33,035 nucleotides of DNA from Gammaproteobacteria bacterium. GTDB taxonomy: Bacteria; Pseudomonadota; Gammaproteobacteria; SZUA-152. Location of the stretch: NCBI GenBank assembly GCA_021647705.1, contig JAKIUF010000051.1, forward strand, positions 1 to 33,035, written 5' to 3'. Under the pieces are notes generated by a model. That model was not told the DNA's origin and did not search any database. It worked only from the letters and a program-made list of their open reading frames with translations. The translations under genes were made by a program, and so were the position numbers. Shown here piece by piece: positions 2,558-16,575 of this stretch. Position 1 is the first letter of the stretch, and every line of letters begins with the position of its first letter.

Positions 2558-3544
2558 TTATAAATGCAGGCGGCGTAATTCAGGTTCCGGTTGACTGCGT
2601 TCCCAGGCTTCGTTGAAGGTTTTAAGAAGTAGCCGTGCCTCGGCTGGACTGTTGAATTCTGCCAAGCCCTCAAAGCGGTCATTATGCGCACGGCGGATGA
2701 TACCCACATCATCGACAATCATAAAAGTATTCACATGGTTTTGCTCTTCTTCATCGGCACGGTGAATAAAAATACGACTACTGATGCGTCGTGCCAGTTC
2801 TACGATGCGGTGCCCATGTGTCACGACTTCAGAAGGGTCCAATATCAAAATGTTGATTCTGGACCGTGAGTTGCAAAGGGCCAGTTTTTTAACGGCTTCG
2901 ATAAACTCTTCGTTGTCGAAAATTCGGGGGTCAAGATTCGGAGTGAACAAGTTCAGTGATCGTTGGCCTTGTGCAGCCATATGTATGGCGGCCTGTTTAT
3001 TGTCCTCCCGTCCTTTGAGATCAATGTAGCCACGGGTTTCACCCAAAACCTGTTTGGGTAAATCATTGATGTTGATATGCACATCCAGCGACGGCAGATT
3101 GCGGGTCATGTGTTGATGGGGAATATTGGCATCCATGAACACTTCACCTTGCGGTGTAAAATCGTGACATAGGTAAAAATTGACAGCCTGTGTTTGTGCA
3201 TCAAGTTTTACGCGGTGCAGTTGTCGTGCGCGGGCAATGGTGATCAGTGCAGTGAGCATTTGGCTGCCTACGCCACGCCGCCGCCATGCACGTAACACCG
3301 CCATGCGTCCGATGTGTCCGTCAGTGGTCATACGAGCGGTGCCGATGCCGCGCCCTTTTTCATCGCGTGCCAGCACATGTATGGCATTTTCATCCTCGCC
3401 ATCCCATTCCAGCTCAGGCGGCACGTTTTGTTCTTTGATGAATACAAATTCACGCAAGATGCGCAAATCAATCTCGGCCTTTTGCCAAGTGACGCGCTGG
3501 ACGTTAAAAGGTTTGGTGACAGTGGAATCAGGTGAAGTAGACAT
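2558..3544 (-). CDS. GNAT N-acetyltransferase with C-terminal PLD-like domain
   Basis: A 328-residue cytoplasmic protein. Residues ~15-145 are a GNAT fold. The acetyl-CoA loop is seen as RMAVLRAWRRRGVGSQML, and VNFYLCHDFTPQGEVFMDANIPHQHM resembles the ElaA/YjcF type. Residues ~170-325 form a second domain (SLNLFTPNLDPRIFDNEEF, ILILDPSEVVTHGHRIVELA) resembling the phospholipase-D-like domain often attached to GNATs beside roxA. It lacks a full HxKxxxxD motif, so catalysis there is doubtful. The start is set at ATG 3544; the longer frame begins with TTG at 3580, deeper inside roxA. The gene overlaps the end of roxA by 17 bp, so the two are probably translationally coupled. The acetylated substrate is unknown. 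Confidence 0.85.
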   Translation of the reverse strand: MSTSPDSTVTKPFNVQRVTWQKAEIDLRILREFVFIKEQNVPPELEWDGEDENAIHVLARDEKGRGIGTARMTTDGHIGRMAVLRAWRRRGVGSQMLTALITIARARQLHRVKLDAQTQAVNFYLCHDFTPQGEVFMDANIPHQHMTRNLPSLDVHININDLPKQVLGETRGYIDLKGREDNKQAAIHMAAQGQRSLNLFTPNLDPRIFDNEEFIEAVKKLALCNSRSRINILILDPSEVVTHGHRIVELARRISSRIFIHRADEEEQNHVNTFMIVDDVGIIRRAHNDRFEGLAEFNSPAEARLLLKTFNEAWERSQPEPELRRLHL

Positions 3545-4694
3545 AGGCGTGGTTGTACAGCGTTGTGAGTAATTTTGCAAAACCGGGTTGTGCTAATTTG
3601 CTTTTTATTTGTGCATACGACCATTGGTGTTGATCACAAAGCAGGGGAGCGGCGAAGGCCAGCTCTGCGGGCAGGGGATAGTGTTGACCGTTAATGAACA
3701 ATGCAGTGTGGTTTGTAGTCGTGTTTGCAATGAAGGCGAACCGTATTTGCTCATTGCGGTACAGTCTGCCTTTTTCTGCAAAGGTGTGCAAAAACGGCTG
3801 TTCATTGAGGGTTTCGATGTCTTCCGATGCGTATTCGTTTTTTGCTTCGGTGATAAATTCGCCAAACCACTGGTCAATGTTGACATCGTCAGTCAGCGTT
3901 TTTTGCAGGATGCCCCGTACCTGGGTGAGGGCATCGCTGGATATTTCGCCGGGATGTTGTTGCAGTCGGAGCGCCGGGTCCGTAAATCGTTGCGCAGGGG
4001 TAAGTTGTGAAGCGATATGGTCGGCAAAACTGTTGAGCAGCTCGGCATGGCTGGGGGCACGAAAACCCACGGAGAGGGTGATGCAGTCTTCCAGTGCAAC
4101 ACCATGATGGGCAACTCCCGGTGGCAGGTAGAGCATGTCGCCGGGATGCAGTATCCACTCTTTCGTGGCAGTGAATTCACGCATGATGCACAAATCAACA
4201 TCTGGCAGAAAATTCTCATCAGGCACGGGGTCTGTGCTGATCTGCCAGCGGCGTGTGCCATGAGCCTGAATCAAAAAGACATCGTATTGATCGGTGTGCG
4301 GACCCACAGAGCCCTGCGTCGGAGCGTAGCTGGCCATGACATCATCAACACGCCAGTTGGGAATGAAGTTAAATTGTTCACGCAACTCTGCCAGCTCAGG
4401 CACATAACGATTGCACTCCTGCACCAGCAATGTCCAGTGGGTTTCCGGCAGTTCAGCAAAGCGGTTTTCAGGAATGGGGCCGTATTCCACTGTCCAGGGG
4501 GCAGCACCCGCCTGTTCCAGTATCAATCGGGATTCCACTTCGGGCTCGCAACAGAGGCCAGCCAGTTCTTCGGGGGAAACAGGGGAGGTAAAACCGGGCA
4601 ATGCATCACGAATCAACAAAGGTTGTCTTTGCCAGTATTCAGCCAGAAAAGTTTCGGGGCAGCGATTTCCCAATAGCGTCAATGGTTTATTCAT
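3528..4694 (-). CDS. roxA: Ribosomal protein L16 arginine 3-hydroxylase (cupin/JmjC oxygenase)
   Basis: A 388-residue Fe(II)/2-oxoglutarate oxygenase of the RoxA/YcfD group, which hydroxylates an arginine of 50S protein L16. The facial triad is visible: H133-T-D135 in GSVGPHTDQYDVF and H196 in PPGVAHHGVA. A conserved N-terminal stretch (FLAEYWQRQPLLIRDA) and WRVDDVMASYAP precede it. Full length for the family, which adds a dimerisation and winged-helix part after the cupin core. ATG at 4694. In E. coli roxA lies close to purB. Here purB is on the same strand about 7 kb upstream, with a metal-resistance cassette between them. It probably shares a transcript with the overlapping GNAT gene. Confidence 0.92.
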   Translation of the reverse strand: MNKPLTLLGNRCPETFLAEYWQRQPLLIRDALPGFTSPVSPEELAGLCCEPEVESRLILEQAGAAPWTVEYGPIPENRFAELPETHWTLLVQECNRYVPELAELREQFNFIPNWRVDDVMASYAPTQGSVGPHTDQYDVFLIQAHGTRRWQISTDPVPDENFLPDVDLCIMREFTATKEWILHPGDMLYLPPGVAHHGVALEDCITLSVGFRAPSHAELLNSFADHIASQLTPAQRFTDPALRLQQHPGEISSDALTQVRGILQKTLTDDVNIDQWFGEFITEAKNEYASEDIETLNEQPFLHTFAEKGRLYRNEQIRFAFIANTTTNHTALFINGQHYPLPAELAFAAPLLCDQHQWSYAQIKSKLAQPGFAKLLTTLYNHAYVYFT

Positions 4695-4782
4695 GGCGGT
4701 AGTGTACGCGAAGCTGTGGTGTGGGTGGAGAGGGTGGCTTTACCGGTAGCGTCAATATTCAATAAACACAAAAAATGAAGGC

Positions 4783-4816
4783 AAAAAAATAGGCCGCGCC
4801 AAAGGAGTGCGCGACC
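4783..4816 (-). terminator. Rho-independent terminator of candidate sRNA B
   Basis: On the minus strand: 8-bp GC-rich stem (4809-4816 paired with 4792-4799), 9-nt loop, then UAUUUUUUU. The U-run lies only on the minus-strand 3' side, which sets the direction. Confidence 0.75.
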
Positions 4817-4877
4817 CAAAAAGAGGAGAATACGACGGTTACTGCATGGGAGGGAGGAACTACCGTCGTGCCCTTCA
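4783..4877 (-). ncRNA. Candidate small RNA B (C-rich loop hairpin plus terminator)
   Basis: On the minus strand, a stem accgtcgt/acgacggt (4862-4869 with 4832-4839) carries a loop containing uuccucccuccca. It is followed by a pyrimidine-rich linker (auucuccucuuuuu) and a terminator hairpin (4809-4816 with 4792-4799, one G-U pair) ending in uauuuuuuu. A -10-like CATACT (4889-4884) predicts a start near 4877, giving ~95 nt. The CRP-type palindrome at 4910-4925 is centred ~41 bp upstream. The CCUCCCUCC loop is complementary to Shine-Dalgarno sequences, as in known anti-SD sRNAs. The architecture matches RNA A upstream. No protein is plausible here. Not matched to a named Rfam family by me. Confidence 0.6.
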
Positions 4878-4906
4878 ATGCTAAGTATGGAAAGATTGGG
4901 CGACAT

Positions 4907-4928
4907 TTCTGTGAGCTGTGTCACAGAA
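4907..4928. promoter_or_regulatory. Perfect CRP/Vfr-type binding site
   Basis: TGTGA-GCTGTG-TCACA (4910-4925) matches the CRP core consensus TGTGA-N6-TCACA exactly. It extends to perfect 8-bp arms with the flanking TTC/GAA. Its centre (4917.5) is 40-42 bp upstream of the start predicted for sRNA B from the minus-strand -10 CATACT. That is the class II activator position, and it would also explain the lack of a good -35 box. Confidence 0.6.
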
Positions 4929-4972
4929 TGGTAGAGAGAGAAAAAAGGTGTTTATCGTGGAAAATGCAGGAT

Positions 4973-4996
4973 AAAAAAAAGGGCGCTTTCGCGCCC
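4973..4996 (-). terminator. Rho-independent terminator of candidate sRNA A
   Basis: Perfect 6-bp stem GGGCGC/GCGCCC with a GAAA tetraloop, followed by eight U on the minus strand. On the plus strand the hairpin is preceded, not followed, by the homopolymer run. Confidence 0.85.
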
Positions 4997-5078
4997 TTCA
5001 AAAGGGAGAGTAATCATGCGATAAAACCCAGGGGAGGGAGAGAGTTGTATCGCACATGTATTTGTTAGCAATGTGCGT
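4973..5078 (-). ncRNA. Candidate small RNA A (C-rich loop hairpin plus terminator), sibling of B
   Basis: On the minus strand, a stem ugcgaua/uaucgca (5048-5054 with 5017-5023) carries a loop with cucucucccuccccu. Next comes a linker (ugauuacucucccuuuu), then a strong terminator, GGGCGC-GAAA-GCGCCC-UUUUUUUU (4996-4973). A -10-like TATAAA at 5090-5085 would start an RNA of ~105 nt near 5078. The order of parts (stem, CUCCCUCCC loop, ACUCUCC linker, terminator) is the same as in RNA B, but the stem sequences differ completely while keeping their pairing. That suggests a diverged tandem duplicate under structural selection. A degenerate half-site GGTGA at 5110-5114 lies where the CRP site lies in B. 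Confidence 0.58.
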
Positions 5079-5245
5079 GCCACCTTTATAGGTTGGTGCA
5101 GAATGGGGGGGTGATGCAGTACAGGTAAAAAATTGTGGCGTTTTTGTACTGTTATGCACCAGCCCATGGCACCGTGTGACGGTTTTTTGTTATCCCGGTG
5201 TCCGAATTTTGTCGGCAGTCAATGATTAAGCACAATAAAAGGAGG

Positions 5246-5367
5246 CGTGAATTAAGTGCTAAAAACAGTCAACCGAATAAAATCACTGATTTACATTCGA
5301 TGGAACAAGCTGTTCTTCGACCATGATGAATCACAGCATCACAAAATCTAACGCAACGGCGTAGAGA
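5246..5367. repeat. Left half of a split repeat element
   Basis: The sequence aligns with the left half of the complete element at 21676-21970. Shared blocks, in order, are gaattaagtgctaaaaac (gagttaaacgctaaaaaa in the full copy), tttacattc, tggaacaa, gttctt, atcacag, and aaaatctaacgcaa. Similarity stops at ~5367, after cgtagag, just upstream of the ArsR promoter. The missing half is found at 11576-11715, on the far side of the metal-resistance genes. Confidence 0.65.
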
Positions 5368-5485
5368 TCCACAGCATTTGAGTTTCTTTTATTTTACTGT
5401 GACGGTCTGGATATGGCTCCTTAGGCTCTTTACACGCCTCTACGAAGAATCACATTTTTTCGACCTTAATTTAGGATGGTTCCAC

Positions 5486-5515
5486 TTGATTAAATACATA
5501 TACTTGCATTATAGT
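5486..5515 (+). promoter_or_regulatory. Sigma-70-like promoter of the metal-resistance operon, probably leaderless
   Basis: TTGATT (5486-5491) and TATAGT (5510-5515) are separated by 18 bp. The expected start is 6-8 bp downstream of TATAGT, at or beside the ATG at 5522. There is no Shine-Dalgarno sequence in front of that ATG (preceding bases gtgcaagt), so the message is probably leaderless. Confidence 0.55.
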
Positions 5516-5523
5516 GCAAGTAT
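5500..5523. promoter_or_regulatory. ArsR/SmtB-type operator overlapping the start codon
   Basis: ATACTTGCA-TTATAG-TGCAAGTAT is a perfect inverted repeat of two 9-bp arms with a 6-bp spacer. It covers the -10 box and the first bases of the adjacent arsR-type gene. Size and placement are those of autoregulatory operators of the ArsR/SmtB family, so repressor binding would block polymerase directly. Confidence 0.75.
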
Positions 5524-5923
5524 GCAGACGATTACTATTCAAGCAGAAACGATTTTTCAGGCATTAGCAGATAAGACCCGGTTACGGATCATCCGCCTAA
5601 TGGTGGTGACAGGTGACGAGTCCTGTTTGTGTGAGCTGGTTGATAGCCTGCTGGAACCCTCATACAAACTTTCCCGTCACCTGAAAATTTTACGTCAGGC
5701 AGGATTGTTGTCATCCCAAAAAGAGGGGCGCTGGGTCTATCATCGCCTGGTGACGAAACCTGCGTATTTGGAACAGCTATACGCCACTGTGCAGGCACTT
5801 CCCGATTTAAACGATATCTATAGCGAAGATTTGAAACTTTTTTGCAAACGGTTGTGCTTACGTGAGGGCGGACGCTGCCAGACAGGTATCCAGTCTGAAG
5901 AGTTCAAAACTGAGGCGGGGTAG
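5522..5923 (+). CDS. ArsR/SmtB-family metal-responsive repressor
   Basis: A 133-residue winged-helix repressor that should release DNA on metal binding. The frame runs upstream to 5378, but that would put the operator inside the gene; ATG 5522 gives the usual family length and start (MQTITIQAETIFQALADKTR). Residues 31-41 (GDESCLCELVD) carry C35-x-C37 at the alpha-3/recognition-helix region, as in the ArsR/CadC type. The helix-turn-helix follows (SYKLSRHLKILRQAGLL), then the wing (KEGRWVYHRL). C108, C112 and C119 near the C-terminus may be extra ligands. First gene of the operon, two bases before the CDF gene. The inducer is likely Cd, Zn, Co or Pb judging from the downstream pumps; arsenic is less likely because no ars genes follow. 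Confidence 0.88.
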   Translation: MQTITIQAETIFQALADKTRLRIIRLMVVTGDESCLCELVDSLLEPSYKLSRHLKILRQAGLLSSQKEGRWVYHRLVTKPAYLEQLYATVQALPDLNDIYSEDLKLFCKRLCLREGGRCQTGIQSEEFKTEAG

Positions 5924-5925
5924 CG

Positions 5926-6540
5926 ATGTCTGGTTGTGGCTGCGAGATTGAAATTAAAAATAGGGATCAAAGTCGTGTACTTATCCTGTTGCTGGCCATT
6001 AACGGGGTGATGTTTATTGCGGAAATTGTTGCTGGAATTATGGGTGACTCAACCGCCCTGATTGCTGATTCATTGGATATGTTGGCCGATGCGACGGTTT
6101 ATGCAATTGGCCTCTATGCCGTGGGGCGGAGTCTGCTCGTCAAGGCGAAGGCGGCTCATGTCAGCGGCATTTTTCAGATTGTGTTGGGGCTTGGAGTGTT
6201 GTTTGACATTGTTCGTCGCACCGTCGTTGGCAGTGAGCCGGAATCGCTGATGATGATTGCTGTGGGCATTGTGGCACTTATCGCTAACACGGTTTGCCTG
6301 ATGCTGATTTATAAACATCGCCAGGGTGAAGTCCACATGCGAGCAAGCTGGATATTTTCAAAAAATGATGTAATCGCTAATTTAGGTGTCATTAGTGGCG
6401 GACTTTTGGTTGCATATACTGGCTCATCTTATCCCGATCTGCTTATCGGTTTAGTTATTGCAGCCATTGTGATTCGAGGGGGCGTACAGATTATCAATGA
6501 AGCTAATCGTGAGAAAAATAAAAAAGAGATGACACTGTAA
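5926..6540 (+). CDS. Short cation diffusion facilitator (CDF) family metal exporter
   Basis: A 204-residue inner-membrane protein with about six hydrophobic segments. It begins with a Cys-containing head (MSGCGCEIE), then TM1 (VLILLLAINGVMFIAEIVAG). MGDSTALIADSLDMLADA is the CDF TM2 signature, with D48, D51 and D55 instead of the usual His-x3-Asp. TM5 has SKNDVIANLGVISGG, again without the canonical His. The C-terminal cytoplasmic domain of typical CDF proteins is absent (usual length ~300). This short, divergent form often accompanies ArsR-type regulators. It is expected to export a divalent cation by proton antiport into the periplasm. The substrate cannot be read from the sequence. Confidence 0.85.
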   Translation: MSGCGCEIEIKNRDQSRVLILLLAINGVMFIAEIVAGIMGDSTALIADSLDMLADATVYAIGLYAVGRSLLVKAKAAHVSGIFQIVLGLGVLFDIVRRTVVGSEPESLMMIAVGIVALIANTVCLMLIYKHRQGEVHMRASWIFSKNDVIANLGVISGGLLVAYTGSSYPDLLIGLVIAAIVIRGGVQIINEANREKNKKEMTL

Positions 6541-6542
6541 TT

Positions 6543-6854
6543 ATGCGTCGATTCATCGCCCATTTACTGATTTTCTCTGTAATTGCTACCAATGTGGCAT
6601 GGGCGATGGATGACTGTTTTTCACAGTATTCAAATAATGAAGTCTCTGGACTGGCACTGTCAGGCGGTTTGTTCAGTGACAATCAGAGTAATGATGTTTG
6701 CGACGAACGTTGCGTTGGTTGGCTTCATCTTGTCGCCATTACTCCAACTACTAAATTCGATTACTTCCCGTTCATCCGCGAGGAGGTGGTACGAACAGAT
6801 ATCTCTTTTCACTCCCTCGATAAAACGCCCCCCATTCGACCTCCACAAATCTAA
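6543..6854 (+). CDS. Small periplasmic protein of a metal-resistance operon (CzcI-like)
   Basis: A 103-residue protein with a signal peptide (MRRFIAHLLIFSVIATNVAWA, cleavage near 21). The mature part has a DDC and a VCDERCVGWLH cysteine/histidine cluster and ends in FHSLDKTPPIRPPQI. Small exported proteins with a Pro-rich PPxRPP tail commonly sit beside czc/cus genes; the family link is made from layout and tail, not close identity. It starts two bases after the CDF stop codon, so it is co-transcribed. Between it and the next gene a 5-bp GC hairpin (6864-6882) may tune downstream expression. The role is perhaps a periplasmic metal sensor or modulator; this is inference. Confidence 0.65.
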   Translation: MRRFIAHLLIFSVIATNVAWAMDDCFSQYSNNEVSGLALSGGLFSDNQSNDVCDERCVGWLHLVAITPTTKFDYFPFIREEVVRTDISFHSLDKTPPIRPPQI

Positions 6855-6927
6855 GTGCTTGCTCGGGGTGTTATAGGCCCCGCTTCGTTTGTTGTACTCA
6901 TAATTTCAAGCAAGGACTTAACAGATC

Positions 6928-8025
6928 ATGAACAAGTTATTAAACCGATTCCTCATTCTCTGCCTGCTGGGCAGTGCGCCGATATTTGCTAATGAAGAGC
7001 ATGAGGAGGAAGGCGGTATTCCACCCATGACGCTGGAGCAGCGTCATGCCATGGGAATTCTCACCCAGACGGTGGCTAGCCAACGGATGGCTGACGAGGT
7101 GATCGCCCCCAGTGAAGTCATGGTTAACCGTTATCACACCACCGAGGTCACGCCACGTATCACTGCTCAGATTATCCGCCGTCATGCCCGTATGGGGGAG
7201 CAGATTAAAAAAGGACAAAAGCTGGTTACGCTCTCCAGCGTCGAGATGGCCGAGGCCCAGGGTCAGTTGTTGATCGCTGACAAAGAGTGGCAGCGGGTGC
7301 AAAAGCTGGGTCGTAAGGTGGTGTCTGAAAAACGCTATGTCGCAGCCCAGGTCGACCACCAACAGGCCTACGCCAAAGTGCTTGCCTTTGGCATGACCGG
7401 AGCGCAAGTGAAGCTCTTGTTGAAACAGGGTGATGTCTCTAAAGCAACGGGTACCTTTGACTTAATCAGCGCTCAGGCGGGCACCGTGCTCAGTGATGAT
7501 TTTGTCATCGGCCGGGTGGTTGAGCCGGGTCAGGTGTTGATGGAGATCAGCGATGAGTCCCGCCTCTGGGTGGAGGCAAAGTTGGCGGCGGAAGTCGCTG
7601 ATCGAATAGAGATAGGAATGTCTGCCCGCGTGAGCAGTGATGAGCAACACTGGGTTAGCGGCAAGGTGGTTCAAATCCACCGCCGTATGGATGAGACGAC
7701 CCGCACACTGGCCGTGCGTATTGAGCTGGACTCAAGCGAGGGTGGTCTGCGCCCTGGTCAGTTTGTCAAGAGTGCCATTGCGCTCACCGCTGGTAAGTCG
7801 GTCATGGCAGTGCCCAGTGAGGCGGTGGTGCTATTGCAAGGGGATTACGTTGTCTTTAAGCCGGAGGGTGATGAGATTCATCCCGCACCCGTGGAACGTG
7901 GTGTGATTCGCGGTAACTGGACGGAGATCAAAGCGGGCCTGGCGTTGGGTGACGAGATTGTGATTCAGGGTGCCTATGTACTCAAATCGTTGCTGTTGAA
8001 ATCGATGATCGGCGATGCGGATTAG
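6928..8025 (+). CDS. HME-RND efflux periplasmic adaptor (CzcB/CusB family)
   Basis: A 365-residue membrane fusion protein. The signal peptide is MNKLLNRFLILCLLGSAPIFA, followed by an acidic His-containing stretch (NEEHEEEGG) that may bind metal. The barrel-sandwich/lipoyl halves are visible as ITAQIIRRHARMGEQIKKGQ and DFVIGRVVEPGQVLMEISD. A short alpha-hairpin lies between them, then a beta-barrel (LWVEAKLAAEVADRI) and a membrane-proximal domain (EGGLRPGQFVKSAIAL, AVPSEAVV). It links the inner-membrane RND pump to an outer-membrane channel. Thirteen bases before the pump gene. No gene for the outer-membrane factor (CzcC/CusC) is present in the cassette, so a channel encoded elsewhere must be recruited. 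Confidence 0.9.
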   Translation: MNKLLNRFLILCLLGSAPIFANEEHEEEGGIPPMTLEQRHAMGILTQTVASQRMADEVIAPSEVMVNRYHTTEVTPRITAQIIRRHARMGEQIKKGQKLVTLSSVEMAEAQGQLLIADKEWQRVQKLGRKVVSEKRYVAAQVDHQQAYAKVLAFGMTGAQVKLLLKQGDVSKATGTFDLISAQAGTVLSDDFVIGRVVEPGQVLMEISDESRLWVEAKLAAEVADRIEIGMSARVSSDEQHWVSGKVVQIHRRMDETTRTLAVRIELDSSEGGLRPGQFVKSAIALTAGKSVMAVPSEAVVLLQGDYVVFKPEGDEIHPAPVERGVIRGNWTEIKAGLALGDEIVIQGAYVLKSLLLKSMIGDAD

Positions 8026-8037
8026 GGGGTAGTCATC

Positions 8038-11000
8038 ATGTTAAATAATCTGGTTGAAGCGTCCTTACGCTATAAGTTTTTGGTGATCGTCAGTTTTGCG
8101 GTAGTGGCTTTTCTCGGTTGGCGAGCGGTCATTACCGTTCCTATTGATGCCTTTCCTGATGTTACCCCGGTGCAAGTGAATATCTACACCGAGGCAGCCG
8201 GTCTGGCGGCTGAAGATGTAGAAGAGTTGCTTACTTTTCCAGTGGAGTCGGGCATGGCGGGGCTGCCCGGTGTGCAGGAGATTCGTTCGGTGAGTCTATT
8301 CGGGCTTTCCTACGTCTCGGTCTATTTCTCCGATGATCTCGACATTTATTTTGCCCGACGGCTAGTGATGGAGCGCCTGCAAGAGGTGGGCGACCGTTTA
8401 CCAGAAGGTTATGGCAAGCCGGAGATGGGGCCGAATACCTCGGGGCTGGGGCAGGTTTTCTGGTATACGGTGGAGCGAGCAGACCGTTCTCTTAAAGAAA
8501 AGACGCTTAAAGAAGATGTCAGCAACATGGATCTGCGCAGTTTGCAGGACTGGCAGGTGCGTTTGATGCTGCGCACCGCGCCGGGCGTGGATGATGTGAT
8601 GTCCTGGGGTGGCGAGGAGCGGCAGTTTCAGGTGGTCATTGATCCACTGAGACTGATCGAATACGACCTCAGTTTCCGCGAAGTGATGGAGGTGATCGAA
8701 CGCAATAATGGTCAGGTGGGTGGCCAGTATATTAATCAAGGCTCAGAACAGTATCTGGTACGCGGCTTGGGGCTGGTGGAGAACGAGACCGACATCGGCA
8801 ATATTGTCGTCAAGGTCGAGGATGGTACGCCAGTCTTTTTGCGTGACGTGGCAAAGATCGCCCAACAACCGGCGTTACGCTTCGGTGCGGTCACCCGTGA
8901 TGGCGAAGAGGTGGTGCTGGGTATGGCACTTGCCCGTATCGGCGAGAACGCCAAGAGCGTGGTGGAAGCGGTGAAGGAGAAGTTTGCCATTGTTGAGTCT
9001 GCACTGCCCGAAGGTGTTGAGCTGCGACCGGTCTACGAGCGTACCGATCTGGTGGACAAAGCGATCAGTACCGCCGTGAAGGCCCTGGTCGAAGGCTCTA
9101 TTCTTGTGGCCATTATCCTGTTTCTATTTCTCGGTGAAATCCGCTCGGCCATCGTGGTGATCTCAGCATTGCCCCTGGCGATGCTGATTGCCTTTATCTT
9201 TATGGGCGAGATGGGATTGTCGGCCAACTTAATGTCGCTGGCGGGGCTGGCTATCGGTATCGGCATGATGATCGATGGGGCCATCGTGATGACCGAAAAC
9301 GCCTTTCGCATCATGTCCGAATGGCGTGAGAAGGGTGAAAAAGTCAATCGCAACGCCGCCGTATTGGCCGCTGCCAAAGAGGTGGCAAACCCTATCGCTT
9401 TTGCCATCCTGATTATCATCGTGGTCTTTTTACCGCTCTTCAGTCTCGAAGGGTTGGAGGGCAAGCTGTTCAAGCCCATGGCCTTTAATATCAGCTTCGC
9501 TATGGCGGGTTCGCTGTTGCTGACACTGACCATTATTCCAGTGCTGGCGGTGTTGATCCTCAAACCCAAAGAGGAGCGCGATACTCTATTAGTGCGCTGG
9601 TTGAAGCGAGTCTATCTGCCGACCCTGGCCTGGTCGTTGGCACACAAAAAAGCTGTCGTCGGCGCTGCGGTGGGACTATTGATCGGGGCGCTGGCACTCT
9701 TCCCACTGCTGGGCAAAGAGTTTATGCCGCAGTTGCAGGAGGGTTCCATCATGTGGCGTGTGGTGTCGATTCCTTCTACCTCGTTGGAGCAATCCATCAA
9801 GATTTCCAAGGATGTTTCCACTGTGCTCACCGCCTTTCCTGAAGTGAAAACCACCGTCGCCATGATCGGCCGTGCCGAGAAGGGAGAAACCGCTGATGTG
9901 AACTATATGGAGATCTATACCGAGCTGAATCCTCATGAAGAATGGCCCGAAAATCGTGACATGGCCTCGCTGGTGGATGAAATGCGTGAGCAACTGGAAG
10001 TGGCCGTACCCACGGCCGTCATCAGCTTTACCCAGCCGATTCAGATGCGAGTCGAAGAGCTGATATCCGGTGTGCGCGCTACCCTGGCGGCCAAGCTCTA
10101 TGGGCAGGATCTGAACGAGTTGGATCGCATTAGCCAACAAGTTAAAAATGCCATCAGCCAGGTGGAAGGCGTGGCCGATCTCTCACTGGAAGCTAACCTC
10201 GGCAAGCCGCAGATTCAGATTCGTGTCAACCGCGAACAACTGGCTCGCTATGGCATGAACGCTGACGAAATATTAACCGTGGTACGTACCGGCATCGGCA
10301 ACGAGCCAGTCTCGACGCTGATTGATGGCGTTAAGCGATTCGATATCACCGTGCGGCTCAACGATGCGGCTAAAATGTCAGTCGATGCGATTCGTAATAT
10401 TCCTCTGCGCAGTAGTGGTGGCGCCATCGTGCCATTGCATAAAGTAGCGGATGTGTCGGTCACAGAAGGTTACTCCTTCATTCGTCGTGAGCAGTTGCAA
10501 CGTTACGCTGTTATCCAGATGGATGTACGTGGCCGCGATGTGGATAGTTTTGTCCAGGCAGCCGAAGCAGCTATTGAAGCGCAGGTCAAAATGCCGCCAG
10601 GTTACTGGATTGAATGGGGCGGCGCATTTGAGAATCAACAGCGGGCGCTGACACGATTGGCCATCATCATTCCGTTGACGATCTTCTTCATCTTCGTGCT
10701 GCTCTACACCGCGTTCAATTCAATCAAGTACGCCACCTTGATTATCGCCAACGTTCCCTTTGCCACCATTGGCGGCATCGCCTCGCTTTTCATCAGCGGA
10801 CAATACCTGTCAGTGCCATCAGCGATTGGCTTTATCGCTGTCTTCGGGGTGGCCATGCTTAACGGTATTGTCCTGATAAGTTTTCTCAACGAACTGCGGG
10901 AGAAGGGTTTGTCCGTCTCAGAGGCAGTACGCAAAGGCGCAGAGATGCGGTTACGGCCGGTGATGATGACCGCCAGTGTCGCCATTCTCGGTCTGGTGCC

Positions 11001-11145
11001 GATGCTGCTTTCTAGTGGTGTCGGTGCCGAAACCCAGCGCCCCCTTGCGACGGTTGTGATTGGTGGGCTAATTACTTCCACCTTGTTGACCCTGGTGCTG
11101 TTGCCAGTGATTTATGAGTGGATGGAAACACGTAAGCAAAAGTGA
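8038..11145 (+). CDS. Heavy-metal efflux RND pump (CzcA/CusA family)
   Basis: A 1035-residue proton-driven inner-membrane pump, full length for the family, with 12 expected membrane segments and two large periplasmic loops. Family marks: N-terminus with VPIDAFPDVTPVQVNIYTEA; TM4 with IGIGMMIDGAIVMTEN, where D413 and E420 are the proton-relay and family-diagnostic residues; and a second-half VAMLNGIVLISFLNELREKG. At the place of the CusA methionine M573 (YMPST), this protein has SIPST. That argues against Cu/Ag and favours Zn/Cd/Co, though the substrate is not proven. SD agggggt precedes ATG 8038. It ends just before a hairpin and the PII-like gene. Confidence 0.95.
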   Translation: MLNNLVEASLRYKFLVIVSFAVVAFLGWRAVITVPIDAFPDVTPVQVNIYTEAAGLAAEDVEELLTFPVESGMAGLPGVQEIRSVSLFGLSYVSVYFSDDLDIYFARRLVMERLQEVGDRLPEGYGKPEMGPNTSGLGQVFWYTVERADRSLKEKTLKEDVSNMDLRSLQDWQVRLMLRTAPGVDDVMSWGGEERQFQVVIDPLRLIEYDLSFREVMEVIERNNGQVGGQYINQGSEQYLVRGLGLVENETDIGNIVVKVEDGTPVFLRDVAKIAQQPALRFGAVTRDGEEVVLGMALARIGENAKSVVEAVKEKFAIVESALPEGVELRPVYERTDLVDKAISTAVKALVEGSILVAIILFLFLGEIRSAIVVISALPLAMLIAFIFMGEMGLSANLMSLAGLAIGIGMMIDGAIVMTENAFRIMSEWREKGEKVNRNAAVLAAAKEVANPIAFAILIIIVVFLPLFSLEGLEGKLFKPMAFNISFAMAGSLLLTLTIIPVLAVLILKPKEERDTLLVRWLKRVYLPTLAWSLAHKKAVVGAAVGLLIGALALFPLLGKEFMPQLQEGSIMWRVVSIPSTSLEQSIKISKDVSTVLTAFPEVKTTVAMIGRAEKGETADVNYMEIYTELNPHEEWPENRDMASLVDEMREQLEVAVPTAVISFTQPIQMRVEELISGVRATLAAKLYGQDLNELDRISQQVKNAISQVEGVADLSLEANLGKPQIQIRVNREQLARYGMNADEILTVVRTGIGNEPVSTLIDGVKRFDITVRLNDAAKMSVDAIRNIPLRSSGGAIVPLHKVADVSVTEGYSFIRREQLQRYAVIQMDVRGRDVDSFVQAAEAAIEAQVKMPPGYWIEWGGAFENQQRALTRLAIIIPLTIFFIFVLLYTAFNSIKYATLIIANVPFATIGGIASLFISGQYLSVPSAIGFIAVFGVAMLNGIVLISFLNELREKGLSVSEAVRKGAEMRLRPVMMTASVAILGLVPMLLSSGVGAETQRPLATVVIGGLITSTLLTLVLLPVIYEWMETRKQK

Positions 11146-11161
11146 TTGGTGCTCAATCGGT

Positions 11162-11190
11162 AACGGCTCCCTCAGATAGAGAGAGCCGTT
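11162..11190. promoter_or_regulatory. Hairpin between RND pump and PII-like gene
   Basis: AACGGCTC/GAGCCGTT, an 8-bp perfect stem with the extra pairing ctc/gag inside. It is followed by ttacatta rather than a long T-run, so it is more likely an RNA-processing or stabilising element, or a weak attenuator, than a full terminator. The next gene has its own good SD, aggaga, at 11208. Confidence 0.4.
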
Positions 11191-11218
11191 TACATTATTC
11201 ATTATTAGGAGAAAGACC

Positions 11219-11533
11219 ATGAAAGAGATCAAAGCCTTTATCCACCGCAATCGCATTATCGATGTCATCCGTGCTCTGAAGGAGGCTGATTTTCGTAACC
11301 TATCAATCATCGATGTGAAGGGTACACTCAAGGCACTGGACAACAAGGAGCAGGATTACTCCGTCGAACTGGGAATTGCCATCATTACCGAAATGAAACT
11401 GGAATTGGTGTGCGATGAATCACGGGTAGATGAAGCGACCCAACTGATTCAGCAACACGCCCGAACAGGTCAAGCTGATGCCGGGTGGATTTATGTCATC
11501 GATATTGGTCAAGCGATTCGGATTGATGGGTGA
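11219..11533 (+). CDS. PII-like protein linked to heavy-metal RND pump
   Basis: A 104-residue cytoplasmic protein with the PII ferredoxin-like fold pattern: MKEIKAFIHRNRIIDVIRALKEADF (beta1-alpha1), KLELVCDESRVDEATQLIQQHARTG (beta3-alpha2), and GWIYVIDIGQAIRIDG. The T-loop lacks the uridylylated Tyr of GlnB/GlnK, and the C-terminal part is short. PII paralogues of this kind, encoded next to czcBA/cusBA-type genes, are a recognised separate group (PII-NG). Their ligand and partner are poorly known; a role in sensing metal or nucleotide and adjusting the pump is likely but inferred. ATG 11219 follows SD aggaga. Last gene of the metal operon. Confidence 0.8.
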   Translation: MKEIKAFIHRNRIIDVIRALKEADFRNLSIIDVKGTLKALDNKEQDYSVELGIAIITEMKLELVCDESRVDEATQLIQQHARTGQADAGWIYVIDIGQAIRIDG

Positions 11534-11575
11534 GTAAAGTTGGACCGAAAAAAATGATCTGCAATACTTTCACCA

Positions 11576-11713
11576 TAAGATAGCTCTAAATTTTATTGCT
11601 TTTGCTCGTTATCCTCTAACCCTTTACACGCTCTGCGTCTTCGCATTGGGTTTTCATTATTCAGGCCTAGTCGGCATGTGCATGAAAACAGGTGATTTAG
11701 CCTATAACTCACA

Positions 11714-15603: not shown

Positions 15604-16575
15604 TTAGTCCTTCAACGTGACTGGCGTGACAAAGCCGGGCGGTTTGACCGCCAGCACGGCACAATTAATCTGGTTGAGGATCGTCTCTGCGGTGTTGCCC
15701 ATGAAGAGTCCGGCCAAACCGGTGCGGGCCACGGTACCCATGACGATGAGATCGGCATCAACTTGTCTGGCTTGTGCCGGAATTTCCGTGCGTGCATTAC
15801 CCTGGCGGAGATGAAGCTGTGGTGATAGGTAATCGTAAGCTTCCGCACCTATCCAGTTGCGTAACTTGCCGGTCAACCGTTCAAGCTGGACCTGCCGTTC
15901 ACGCTGTTCACGATTCACGTTGGCGGCGACTTGCGCTTCGGATAAATCGCTGCTGAATACTCTTATCAAACTCTCCGTTATGGGTTTCCAGGCATGGATT
16001 ACATGCAATTCAGCGAAATCGGATAGCACTATAGAACTCGCCAGCTCCAGAATAAGCCGGTTCAGATCATTTTCCCCACCGTCTTCCTGCCATGAGTCAA
16101 AATCAACTGCGGCCATAACCCGGCTATAATTGGGTTTTTCCTCCGGCAACATGATCCACACTGGACACGGGCACTTGCGTAACAGGTGCATATCGTCGCT
16201 GCTGAATAACCGGTCTTGCCAATCCTGGGTTTCCGCGCTTTTAATCACCAGGTCACACCCGTTGCGCAGTATTTCTCGAATAATTTCCAGAAACGGTGTG
16301 CCAATCAACACTCGGGTTTGTATGTTAATCCGCTGGCGGTAGGGTTCAATCAGGGAGTCCAGTTCTTGTTTACGTGCATTGACGATTGCCGCTTGGAGGT
16401 CCACAAAGACTGGATTGTCTCCCGGCATTCTAATGTCGGCAGTTACGCTTTCGACCACATCGACAATCGTCAGGTTTGCCTGGTTGTTTTCAGTCAGCGT
16501 GGCTGCGCGTTCCAGCGCGGGTTTGTGCCCGGTTTCTGGCGTCACTACACAAAGAATATTATTGAATCTTTTCAT
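15604..16575 (-). CDS. Tandem-domain universal stress protein (UspE-like)
   Basis: A 323-residue cytoplasmic protein with two Usp domains. The first, residues ~1-150, begins MKRFNNILCVVTPETGHKPALERA. The second, ~155-315, ends in the nucleotide-binding signature GTVARTGLAGLFMGNTAETIL, followed by NCAVLAVKPPGF. The start is moved to ATG 16575, because GGAGGT (16588-16583) lies 7 bases upstream; the longer frame would begin with GTG 16584 inside that leader. It follows the CPA2 antiporter gene by 96 bp on the same strand, so the two probably form an operon. Usp partners of cation antiporters are common and may sense ATP or stress state. Confidence 0.88.
   Translation of the reverse strand: MKRFNNILCVVTPETGHKPALERAATLTENNQANLTIVDVVESVTADIRMPGDNPVFVDLQAAIVNARKQELDSLIEPYRQRINIQTRVLIGTPFLEIIREILRNGCDLVIKSAETQDWQDRLFSSDDMHLLRKCPCPVWIMLPEEKPNYSRVMAAVDFDSWQEDGGENDLNRLILELASSIVLSDFAELHVIHAWKPITESLIRVFSSDLSEAQVAANVNREQRERQVQLERLTGKLRNWIGAEAYDYLSPQLHLRQGNARTEIPAQARQVDADLIVMGTVARTGLAGLFMGNTAETILNQINCAVLAVKPPGFVTPVTLKD

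Follow-up and report, generated by a model that had tools for sequence, protein, structure and literature searches.

The window analysed here (the whole stretch of 33,035 nucleotides) contains an intergenic region flanked by two housekeeping genes, with purB on the upstream side and roxA downstream. Two minus-strand units noticed in a preliminary description of this region were both confirmed by sequence inspection inside 4783-5078. In each unit the parts follow in the order given there: a closed stem, a C-rich loop, a CU-rich linker and a GC-rich terminator with a U-run. In the direction of transcription of the units the features are:

5177-5213, minus strand: conserved upstream element GACAAAATTCGGACACCGGGATAACAAAAAACCGTCA, in the window GACAAAATTCGGACACCGGGATAAC...CGTCA
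5067-5082, minus strand: putative sigma-54 promoter TGGCACGCACATTGCT (-24/-12) of unit 1, full element in the sequence
4973-5057, minus strand: unit 1 small RNA, start predicted at ~5057 from the promoter position, end of the U-run at 4973
minus strand: unit 1 stem TGCGATA/TATCGCA, its loop given as CAACTCTCTCCCTCCCCTGGGTTT
5027-5044, minus strand: unit 1 C-rich loop CTCTCTCCCTCCCCTGGG, from sequence and folding
5000-5013, minus strand: unit 1 linker TTACTCTCCCTTTT, unpaired and strongly conserved, also read as TTACTCTCCC
4978-4999, minus strand: unit 1 terminator stem-loop, followed by a U-run to 4973 (eight T at the end)
4910-4925, minus strand: CRP-type palindrome TGTGACACAGCTCACA, its centre approximately 41.5-42.5 bases before the start predicted for unit 2
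4882-4887, minus strand: -10-like hexamer TACTTA of unit 2, CATACTTA or CATAATTA in loci of the genus
4783-4875, minus strand: unit 2 small RNA, predicted start at ~4875, end of the U-run at 4783
minus strand: unit 2 stem ACGACGGT/ACCGTCGT, from sequence
4840-4860, minus strand: unit 2 C-rich loop GTTCCTCCCTCCCATGCAGTA, from sequence, folding and alignment
4818-4832, minus strand: unit 2 linker TATTCTCCTCTTTTT, also read as ATTCTCCTC
4791-4817, minus strand: unit 2 terminator stem-loop, followed by the U-run 4783-4789 (seven T at the end)
3531-4694, minus strand: roxA (ribosomal oxygenase), Pfam PF08007 (JmjC_2) and PF20514 (ROXA-like_wH)

The two Pfam domains bear out the name roxA that the downstream gene had been given. 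At 4695-4715 the gene has no Shine-Dalgarno sequence; the hexamer TACACT ends 6 bases before the ATG, and a similar box is present in 15 other loci. The CTCTCC linker of the preliminary description is exact in unit 1, whereas unit 2 has TTCTCCTC instead, and the RNA lengths of ~95 and ~105 nt expected there have to be shortened, since the promoters predict about 85 and 93 nt. The folding energy was -29.8 kcal/mol for unit 1 (z -5.47) and -30.6 kcal/mol for unit 2 (z -3.19); in both cases none of 200 shuffles was equally good. The U-runs of 7-8 at the ends of the units would be compatible with Hfq binding. An own-genome DNA search with the locus gave one match at E values up to 0.001. The locus is single, and the region as a whole is not a dispersed repeat, an alternative that had also been raised.

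Conservation of the structure was tested on aligned relatives. In the unit 2 alignment (A2, 17 rows) 91.9% of 372 cells pair, and no more than 53.0% do so when the partners are slid by 1-3 columns. Changes on both sides were found in 17 of the 22 pairs, with 51 such cells as against 20.4 in shuffles. Two loci, L110 and L111, were excluded from A2 because their unit 2 loops are not confidently alignable; the covariance model R2, for which no rows but those of unit 2 were used, gives them 18.0 and 27.2 bits. For unit 1 the sequence-only alignment A1 had its stems out of register, and RNAalifold returned four pairs from it, none with change on both sides. A1 was superseded by a model from ten relatives (A3, R1) and then by the model-guided alignment A5 (18 rows), in which 91.4% of 302 cells pair (slid partners at most 55.7%). 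Changes on both sides occur here in 15 of the 17 pairs (67 such cells, 24.4 in shuffles); A5 leans towards R1, to which it was fitted. Further pair types were no better than in shuffles, 58/500 and 225/500 of which reached the observed value. Compensatory changes in homologues, which the preliminary description had named as a test of its reading, are thus present in both units. Within the unit 1 linker, ATTACTCTCCC is identical in 13 of the 18 aligned unit 1 rows.

The relation between the two units was examined with R1 (ten unit 1 rows from relatives, the window excluded) and R2. On the window R1 found unit 1 with 52.1 bits (E 1e-11) and unit 2 with 23.1 bits (E 0.0013). R2 found unit 1 with 33.3 bits (E 2e-7), and its next own-genome match scored 21.8 bits. 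Each model thus detects the other unit, as expected for neighbouring siblings akin in structure and sequence. Other hairpins in 370 genomes reach up to 31.4 bits with R2, so that kinship of the units by duplication is likely rather than proven, with convergence as the alternative.

A DNA search covering 96 genomes gave matches in 12, ten of them members of the genus (the own genome included) and two others. The matches in L010 and L012 were discarded as homologues because they were short and chance-like on inspection. A RoxA protein search had matches in 19 of the family's 24 genomes, and in these 19 the region before roxA was read. Unit 2 was present in 19/19, with divergent forms in G012 and G016. 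Unit 1 was present in 18/19; in G009 unit 2 stands without unit 1 within the 900 bases read before roxA. (L021-L027 and L031 share contigs with G-labelled genomes and were counted once; L027 and L013 are the same locus.) The arrangement varies. The units are ~700 bases apart in G005 (L027), as against ~95 in the window, and in G021 additional DNA separates unit 2 from roxA. G012 has a third unit (L110:792-870) upstream of the pair, which scores 22.5 bits with R1 and is preceded by its own sigma-54-like site, TGGCACATCGAATGCA. The inter-unit DNA of G005, the third unit of G012 and the solitary unit 2 of G009 (900 bases) argue that the units are separate genes. Between the units of G005 (L027 2150-2847, G005:C122) opposite-strand ORFs resemble, by eye, a RelE/ParE-type toxin and antitoxin.

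The five family genomes without a roxA match (G001, G010, G014, G018 and G020) gave best R2 matches of 20-27 bits, which were terminators or hairpins, with no sigma-54- or CRP-type site in the preceding 250 bases and no purB or roxA in the DNA examined. One of them, L135 (G010:C11:32000-32077; R2 ~20 bits), consists of a small hairpin, whose loop contains a C-run, and a terminator behind it; it may be a remote relative of the units. A C-run-loop hairpin followed by a terminator was also seen in G012 (L136, G012:C127:22743-22815; R2 ~20 bits), away from purB and roxA in the DNA examined. In genus g3 two genomes (L139, L134) have a hairpin with the loop CTCCTCCC between two ORFs, perhaps a cis element, and there are four further R2 matches of ~28-29 bits (L143, L145-L147).

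Outside the family, among 72 roxA loci, a unit-2-like hairpin with a TGTGA-type site before roxA was seen in L044 (Sulfuriflexus), L054, L055 and L063. An R2 search of the window and 53 of 112 loci detected L054 (E 0.0007), L063 (E 0.037) and L055 (E 0.59); L044 was not detected in this search, and its identification is by eye alone. Of 370 genomes of the class searched with R2 at a limit of E 1e-4, nine had a match, three of them family members and six others (L148-L153). Five of the six non-family matches look like plain terminators or hairpins and were rejected. The remaining one, L148 (~1427-1570, G204:C368), is built as unit 1: a closed stem, a C-rich loop ACCTCCCCCTTAG, a CU-rich CATCCTCCCTC and a terminator, with a sigma-54-like TGGCACAGAGCATGCA 74 bases ahead of the structure. 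No purB or roxA was found within the 2 kb examined, and L148 could be either a relative or a convergent structure. Because of L148 and the non-family roxA loci, this kind of RNA may extend beyond the family.

The promoters of the twins are of two kinds, sigma-54 for unit 1 and CRP-type for unit 2, a difference that the preliminary description had missed, together with the linkers as perhaps more specific pairing segments and the candidate targets. A sigma-54 site, TGGCA(C/T)-N6-TGC(A/T), is found in 18/18 unit 1 loci, the pattern itself having served to place unit 1 in them. Its distance to the unit 1 stem is 13-14 nt in 16 loci and 20 nt in two. The exact sequence TGGCACGNNNNTTGCW occurs five times in the own genome (control 1), and another exact copy precedes genes resembling flgB and flgC by eye. 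The upstream element aligns in the eight genus loci compared, and a related form is present in 5/6 loci of genus g3. With up to 3 mismatches allowed, its pattern has no second match in the own genome, and no copy was found, by eye and genome search, at the four other exact sigma-54 sites (L016, L017, L018 and L020). The element is probably the binding site of a sigma-54 enhancer-binding protein. It stands directly after the purB stop in L022-L025 and L031. In the window a metal-efflux gene group (5240-11600) lies between purB and the element, with an ArsR-type regulator, a CDF transporter, a HlyD-type adaptor, a CusA/CzcA-type RND pump and a P-II-like protein; it looks inserted because in L022-L025 the purB stop comes just before the element (by eye).

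For unit 2 the best match to TGTGA-N6-TCACA was sought in the 80 bases before the unit in 19 loci. It had no mismatch in nine loci, one in three and 2-5 in seven, so that a site with at most one mismatch is present in 12/19 loci, the window and 11 others. The centre of a CRP class II site lies near -41.5, and that of the unit 2 site in the window, counted from the predicted start, would sit at about this position. The site is degenerate in L102-L108. The degenerate sites of genus g3 (L102-L107) are followed by a conserved TTCAGTTTGAACCCGGATAAT-like block, L103 and L105 having AGTGAAATGATTCACT at the matching position; perhaps the regulator has changed there. The -10-like hexamer of unit 2 has an exception in L101, where CATAATA is found. 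At the sequence level unit 1 has a -24/-12 element and a putative upstream activator site, as a sigma-54-dependent transcript would, and unit 2 has a CRP-type site.

Since the units lie on the same strand as roxA, precede it in 19/19 family loci read and end, with the unit 2 terminator, ~90 bases before it, they might form a cis-acting leader or attenuator whose terminators control read-through into the gene. However, in 16/19 loci a -10-like box (TACACT/TAAACT/TAGACT/TATACT) ends 6-8 bases before the roxA ATG, a position as for a leaderless mRNA (L024, L108 and L110 are the exceptions; L108 has a Shine-Dalgarno-like AAAGGAG). A single leader would need neither two full terminators nor two unlike promoters, and the extra DNA that separates the units in G005, or unit 2 from roxA in G021, also speaks against it. 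We regard this explanation as quite unlikely. A conserved region could also encode a peptide, and in the window a 71-aa frame does overlap unit 2. This frame has stops in L023, L027 and L031, L024-L027 and L031 lack its ATG, and conservation tracks the base pairs; with the frame broken across relatives and the pairs kept, peptide coding was rejected as extremely improbable.

Two other explanations accept that the units are RNA genes. Their single-stranded, conserved loops could serve as sponges that titrate a protein such as CsrA or Crc/Hfq, as the sigma-54-driven CrcZ reportedly does. CsrA-binding RNAs carry GGA loops and Crc/Hfq-titrating RNAs carry A-rich motifs. The conserved segments here are CU-rich, neither of the two, and long stretches at ribosome-binding sites are perfectly complementary to the linkers, which makes a sponge unlikely. 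The pair might also belong to a described family of C-rich small RNAs (the alpha-r8/suhB 'cuckoo' RNAs, NmsR or sX13), with which it shares the plan of C-rich anti-Shine-Dalgarno segments; the suhB model even touches both units at 17.4 bits. This score has an E value of 0.61 and compares with a gathering score of 41, and no Rfam family reaches its gathering score; membership is very unlikely. The explanation we prefer, with a probability of roughly three in four, is a pair of sibling small RNA genes that have separate promoters and separate terminators and whose RNAs block ribosome-binding sites. That these are two small RNA genes is, as part of this, highly probable from the sequence comparisons, and that the RNAs act by pairing at ribosome-binding sites is probable.

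Candidate targets were ranked against 307 ORFs that a simple script called in the window and in 20 stretches. This background covers ~9% of the genome and comes from contigs to which earlier matches had pointed. The counts for the nirK-like gene, the cytochrome gene and the unit 2 loop are biased because L233, L248, L249 and L251 hold target-pattern places; the GFA site (below) was not found through a target pattern search. The C-rich segments fit many Shine-Dalgarno sites.

In the own genome the unit 1 linker has a 14-nt gapless perfect complement at the ribosome-binding site of a nirK-like gene, and a CATG of the unit 1 RNA can pair with the start-codon CATG of this gene. The duplex of linker and site (-26.0 kcal/mol) ranks 1/308, the next reaching -21.7; the gene drops to 4/308 when a longer piece of unit 1 is used. 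When unit 1 linkers were shuffled with the anti-Shine-Dalgarno core kept, 14 nt was reached in 6/2999 and, with the CTCTCCC core, in 41/2985 cases. The 10-mer linker complement AAGGGAGAGTN{0,9}ATG occurs 22 times in 12 genomes of the genus, seven of these places being the RNA locus, and four times in the control, which was too easy because the reversed pattern is not a Shine-Dalgarno sequence. Six of the other 15 places belong to one gene, the nirK-like gene, in 6/12 genus genomes; as the six are closely related, the site may be shared by descent. The product is a 318-aa copper protein. It scores 162 bits with TIGR02376 (copper nitrite reductase; cut-off 296), and its best solved relative is 4kns, 'Multicopper oxidase type 1' (355 bits), followed by copper nitrite reductases, for which reasons the gene is called nirK-like. 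On this evidence the arguments for and against its being a real target appear evenly balanced.

The loop complement GGGAGGGAGN{3,10}ATG was found 25 times in the 12 genus genomes (control 13). Nine of these places are one diheme cytochrome c gene, in 9/12 genomes (its frame is broken in G006), whose ribosome-binding site matches the loops of both units. Orthologues in G001 and seven genomes of other genera have the site in the form GGGAGGGTG. No G-rich site was present at the best matches in G013, G017, G020, G022 and G023 (g3; 53-54% identical, perhaps paralogues). For the loops the cytochrome ranks 4th to 6th of 308, and shuffled loops were equally good in 28/3000 cases for unit 2 and 353/3000 for unit 1. 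Co-evolution of RNA and site was not detected among the 12 genomes: swapped pairs equalled the cognate ones, 737/2000 permutations being as good for unit 1 and 1252/2000 for unit 2. In the own genome the cytochrome c gene is the first of a cbb3-like cluster that also contains CcoN- and CcoO-like genes, all below the equivalog cut-offs. The sequences suggest a candidate whose status as a real target is possible and somewhat doubtful. The cluster in L251 (11395-18559) comprises a c4-like diheme cytochrome, a second cytochrome c, a short COX1-like ORF and the CcoN- and CcoO-like genes; with all of these below equivalog cut-offs it looks like an unusual heme-copper oxidoreductase.

Among the own-genome ORFs compared, a GFA-family gene has a ribosome-binding site that is perfectly complementary to the unit 2 linker over 15 nt. 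Shuffled unit 2 linkers, again with the anti-Shine-Dalgarno core kept, reached 15 nt in 0/2966 and 0/2659 cases. The gene lies in L247 on the reverse strand (start codon at base 15703).

Comparison of the sequences establishes the structure, the terminators and the conserved promoter elements of the units; from these we infer their transcription, the activators, the pairing in the cell and the targets. The sigma-54 RNA polymerase would make unit 1 when an enhancer-binding protein acts from 5177-5213, and unit 2 would be made while a CRP-type regulator occupies 4910-4925. Each RNA would leave two CU-rich stretches unpaired, its loop and its linker, and translation would be blocked where these base-pair with G-rich ribosome-binding sites. 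Unpaired C/U-rich segments, a conserved fold and an intrinsic terminator, the structural marks of anti-Shine-Dalgarno RNAs, were all found. The best candidates for targets would be respiratory: the nirK-like copper nitrite reductase for the unit 1 linker and the cytochrome c for the loops of both RNAs. We consider the mechanism likely, and the targets plausible but unproven. A further idea, which we put forward tentatively and hold to be rather unlikely, is a two-input switch of respiration, in which sigma-54 and cAMP-CRP-type signals each fire one sibling, the cytochrome being a shared target of the loops and the linker targets private (the nirK-like gene for unit 1, the GFA-family gene for unit 2). 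If true, nitrite and oxygen reduction would both be tied to two global signals through one intergenic region.

The Rfam scan that had been proposed for the region was run with Rfam 15, and no family reached its gathering score in the window. At E values up to 10 there were 12 weak matches around the locus, all far below threshold, such as SorY (20.2 bits against 111), LhrC (20 against 110) and suhB (17.4 against 41). The absence from Rfam, the conserved architecture, the covariation and the cross-detection by R1 and R2 support the earlier suggestion of a new or lineage-specific anti-Shine-Dalgarno RNA pair before roxA. Narrow literature searches in one open library found no description of this RNA family (a purB intergenic small RNA in Chromatiales included), nor of sigma-54 and CRP-type promoters on tandem siblings (the cuckoo motif CCUCCUCCC included).

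CrcZ and NrsZ are sigma-54-driven small RNAs, and transcription of GlmY/GlmZ is reportedly enhancer dependent. Enhancer-dependent sigma-54 transcription is described for the small RNA Qrr (PMC10162802), and GlmY/GlmZ (PMC7073468) also count among the sigma-54-driven small RNAs. The likeness of these four systems to the present pair lies in enhancer-dependent transcription, here predicted for unit 1; they differ in that the window has no Rfam gathering match. Moreover, Qrr, GlmY/GlmZ, CrcZ and NrsZ use other pairing segments.

The closest parallels, compared by description, are sibling or C-rich RNAs. NmsRA and NmsRB of Neisseria meningitidis are tandem, similar siblings in one intergenic region, whose UC-rich loop and UC-rich inter-stem segment are anti-Shine-Dalgarno sequences directed at TCA-cycle mRNAs (PMC5362039). 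The units resemble them as tandem siblings with a C/U-rich anti-Shine-Dalgarno loop and linker. In contrast, the NmsR RNAs have three stem-loops, are 70% identical and are under stringent-response control, and the sigma-54/CRP input pair seen here does not appear in the part of their description at hand (PMC5362039). In Xanthomonas, sX13 uses C-rich loops to repress mRNAs that carry G-rich motifs close to the start codon; it differs as a single, Hfq-independent RNA with three C-rich loops, not a pair (PMC3771888). The alpha-r8/suhB RNAs (mmgR; SisA-D of Caulobacter) are siblings that share an anti-Shine-Dalgarno 10-mer under unrelated promoters (PMC12559287). Sibling RNAs under unrelated promoters are a likeness of SisA-D to the pair, whereas the alpha-r8/suhB RNAs are described there as alphaproteobacterial (PMC12559287), and the suhB model stays at 17.4 bits here against its gathering score of 41. 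Given the precedents NmsR, sX13 and SisA-D and no gathering match, the pair appears to be of a known kind, sibling anti-Shine-Dalgarno small RNAs, and its family new to Rfam. With it, a conserved family of RNAs not contained in Rfam 15 would be added to a lineage of Gammaproteobacteria for which the named relatives found are metagenome-assembled genomes, and this family would have concrete and testable candidate targets in nitrite and oxygen respiration. Twins with similar loops, unlike linkers and separate promoters would offer a clean natural case for asking why sibling small RNAs persist.
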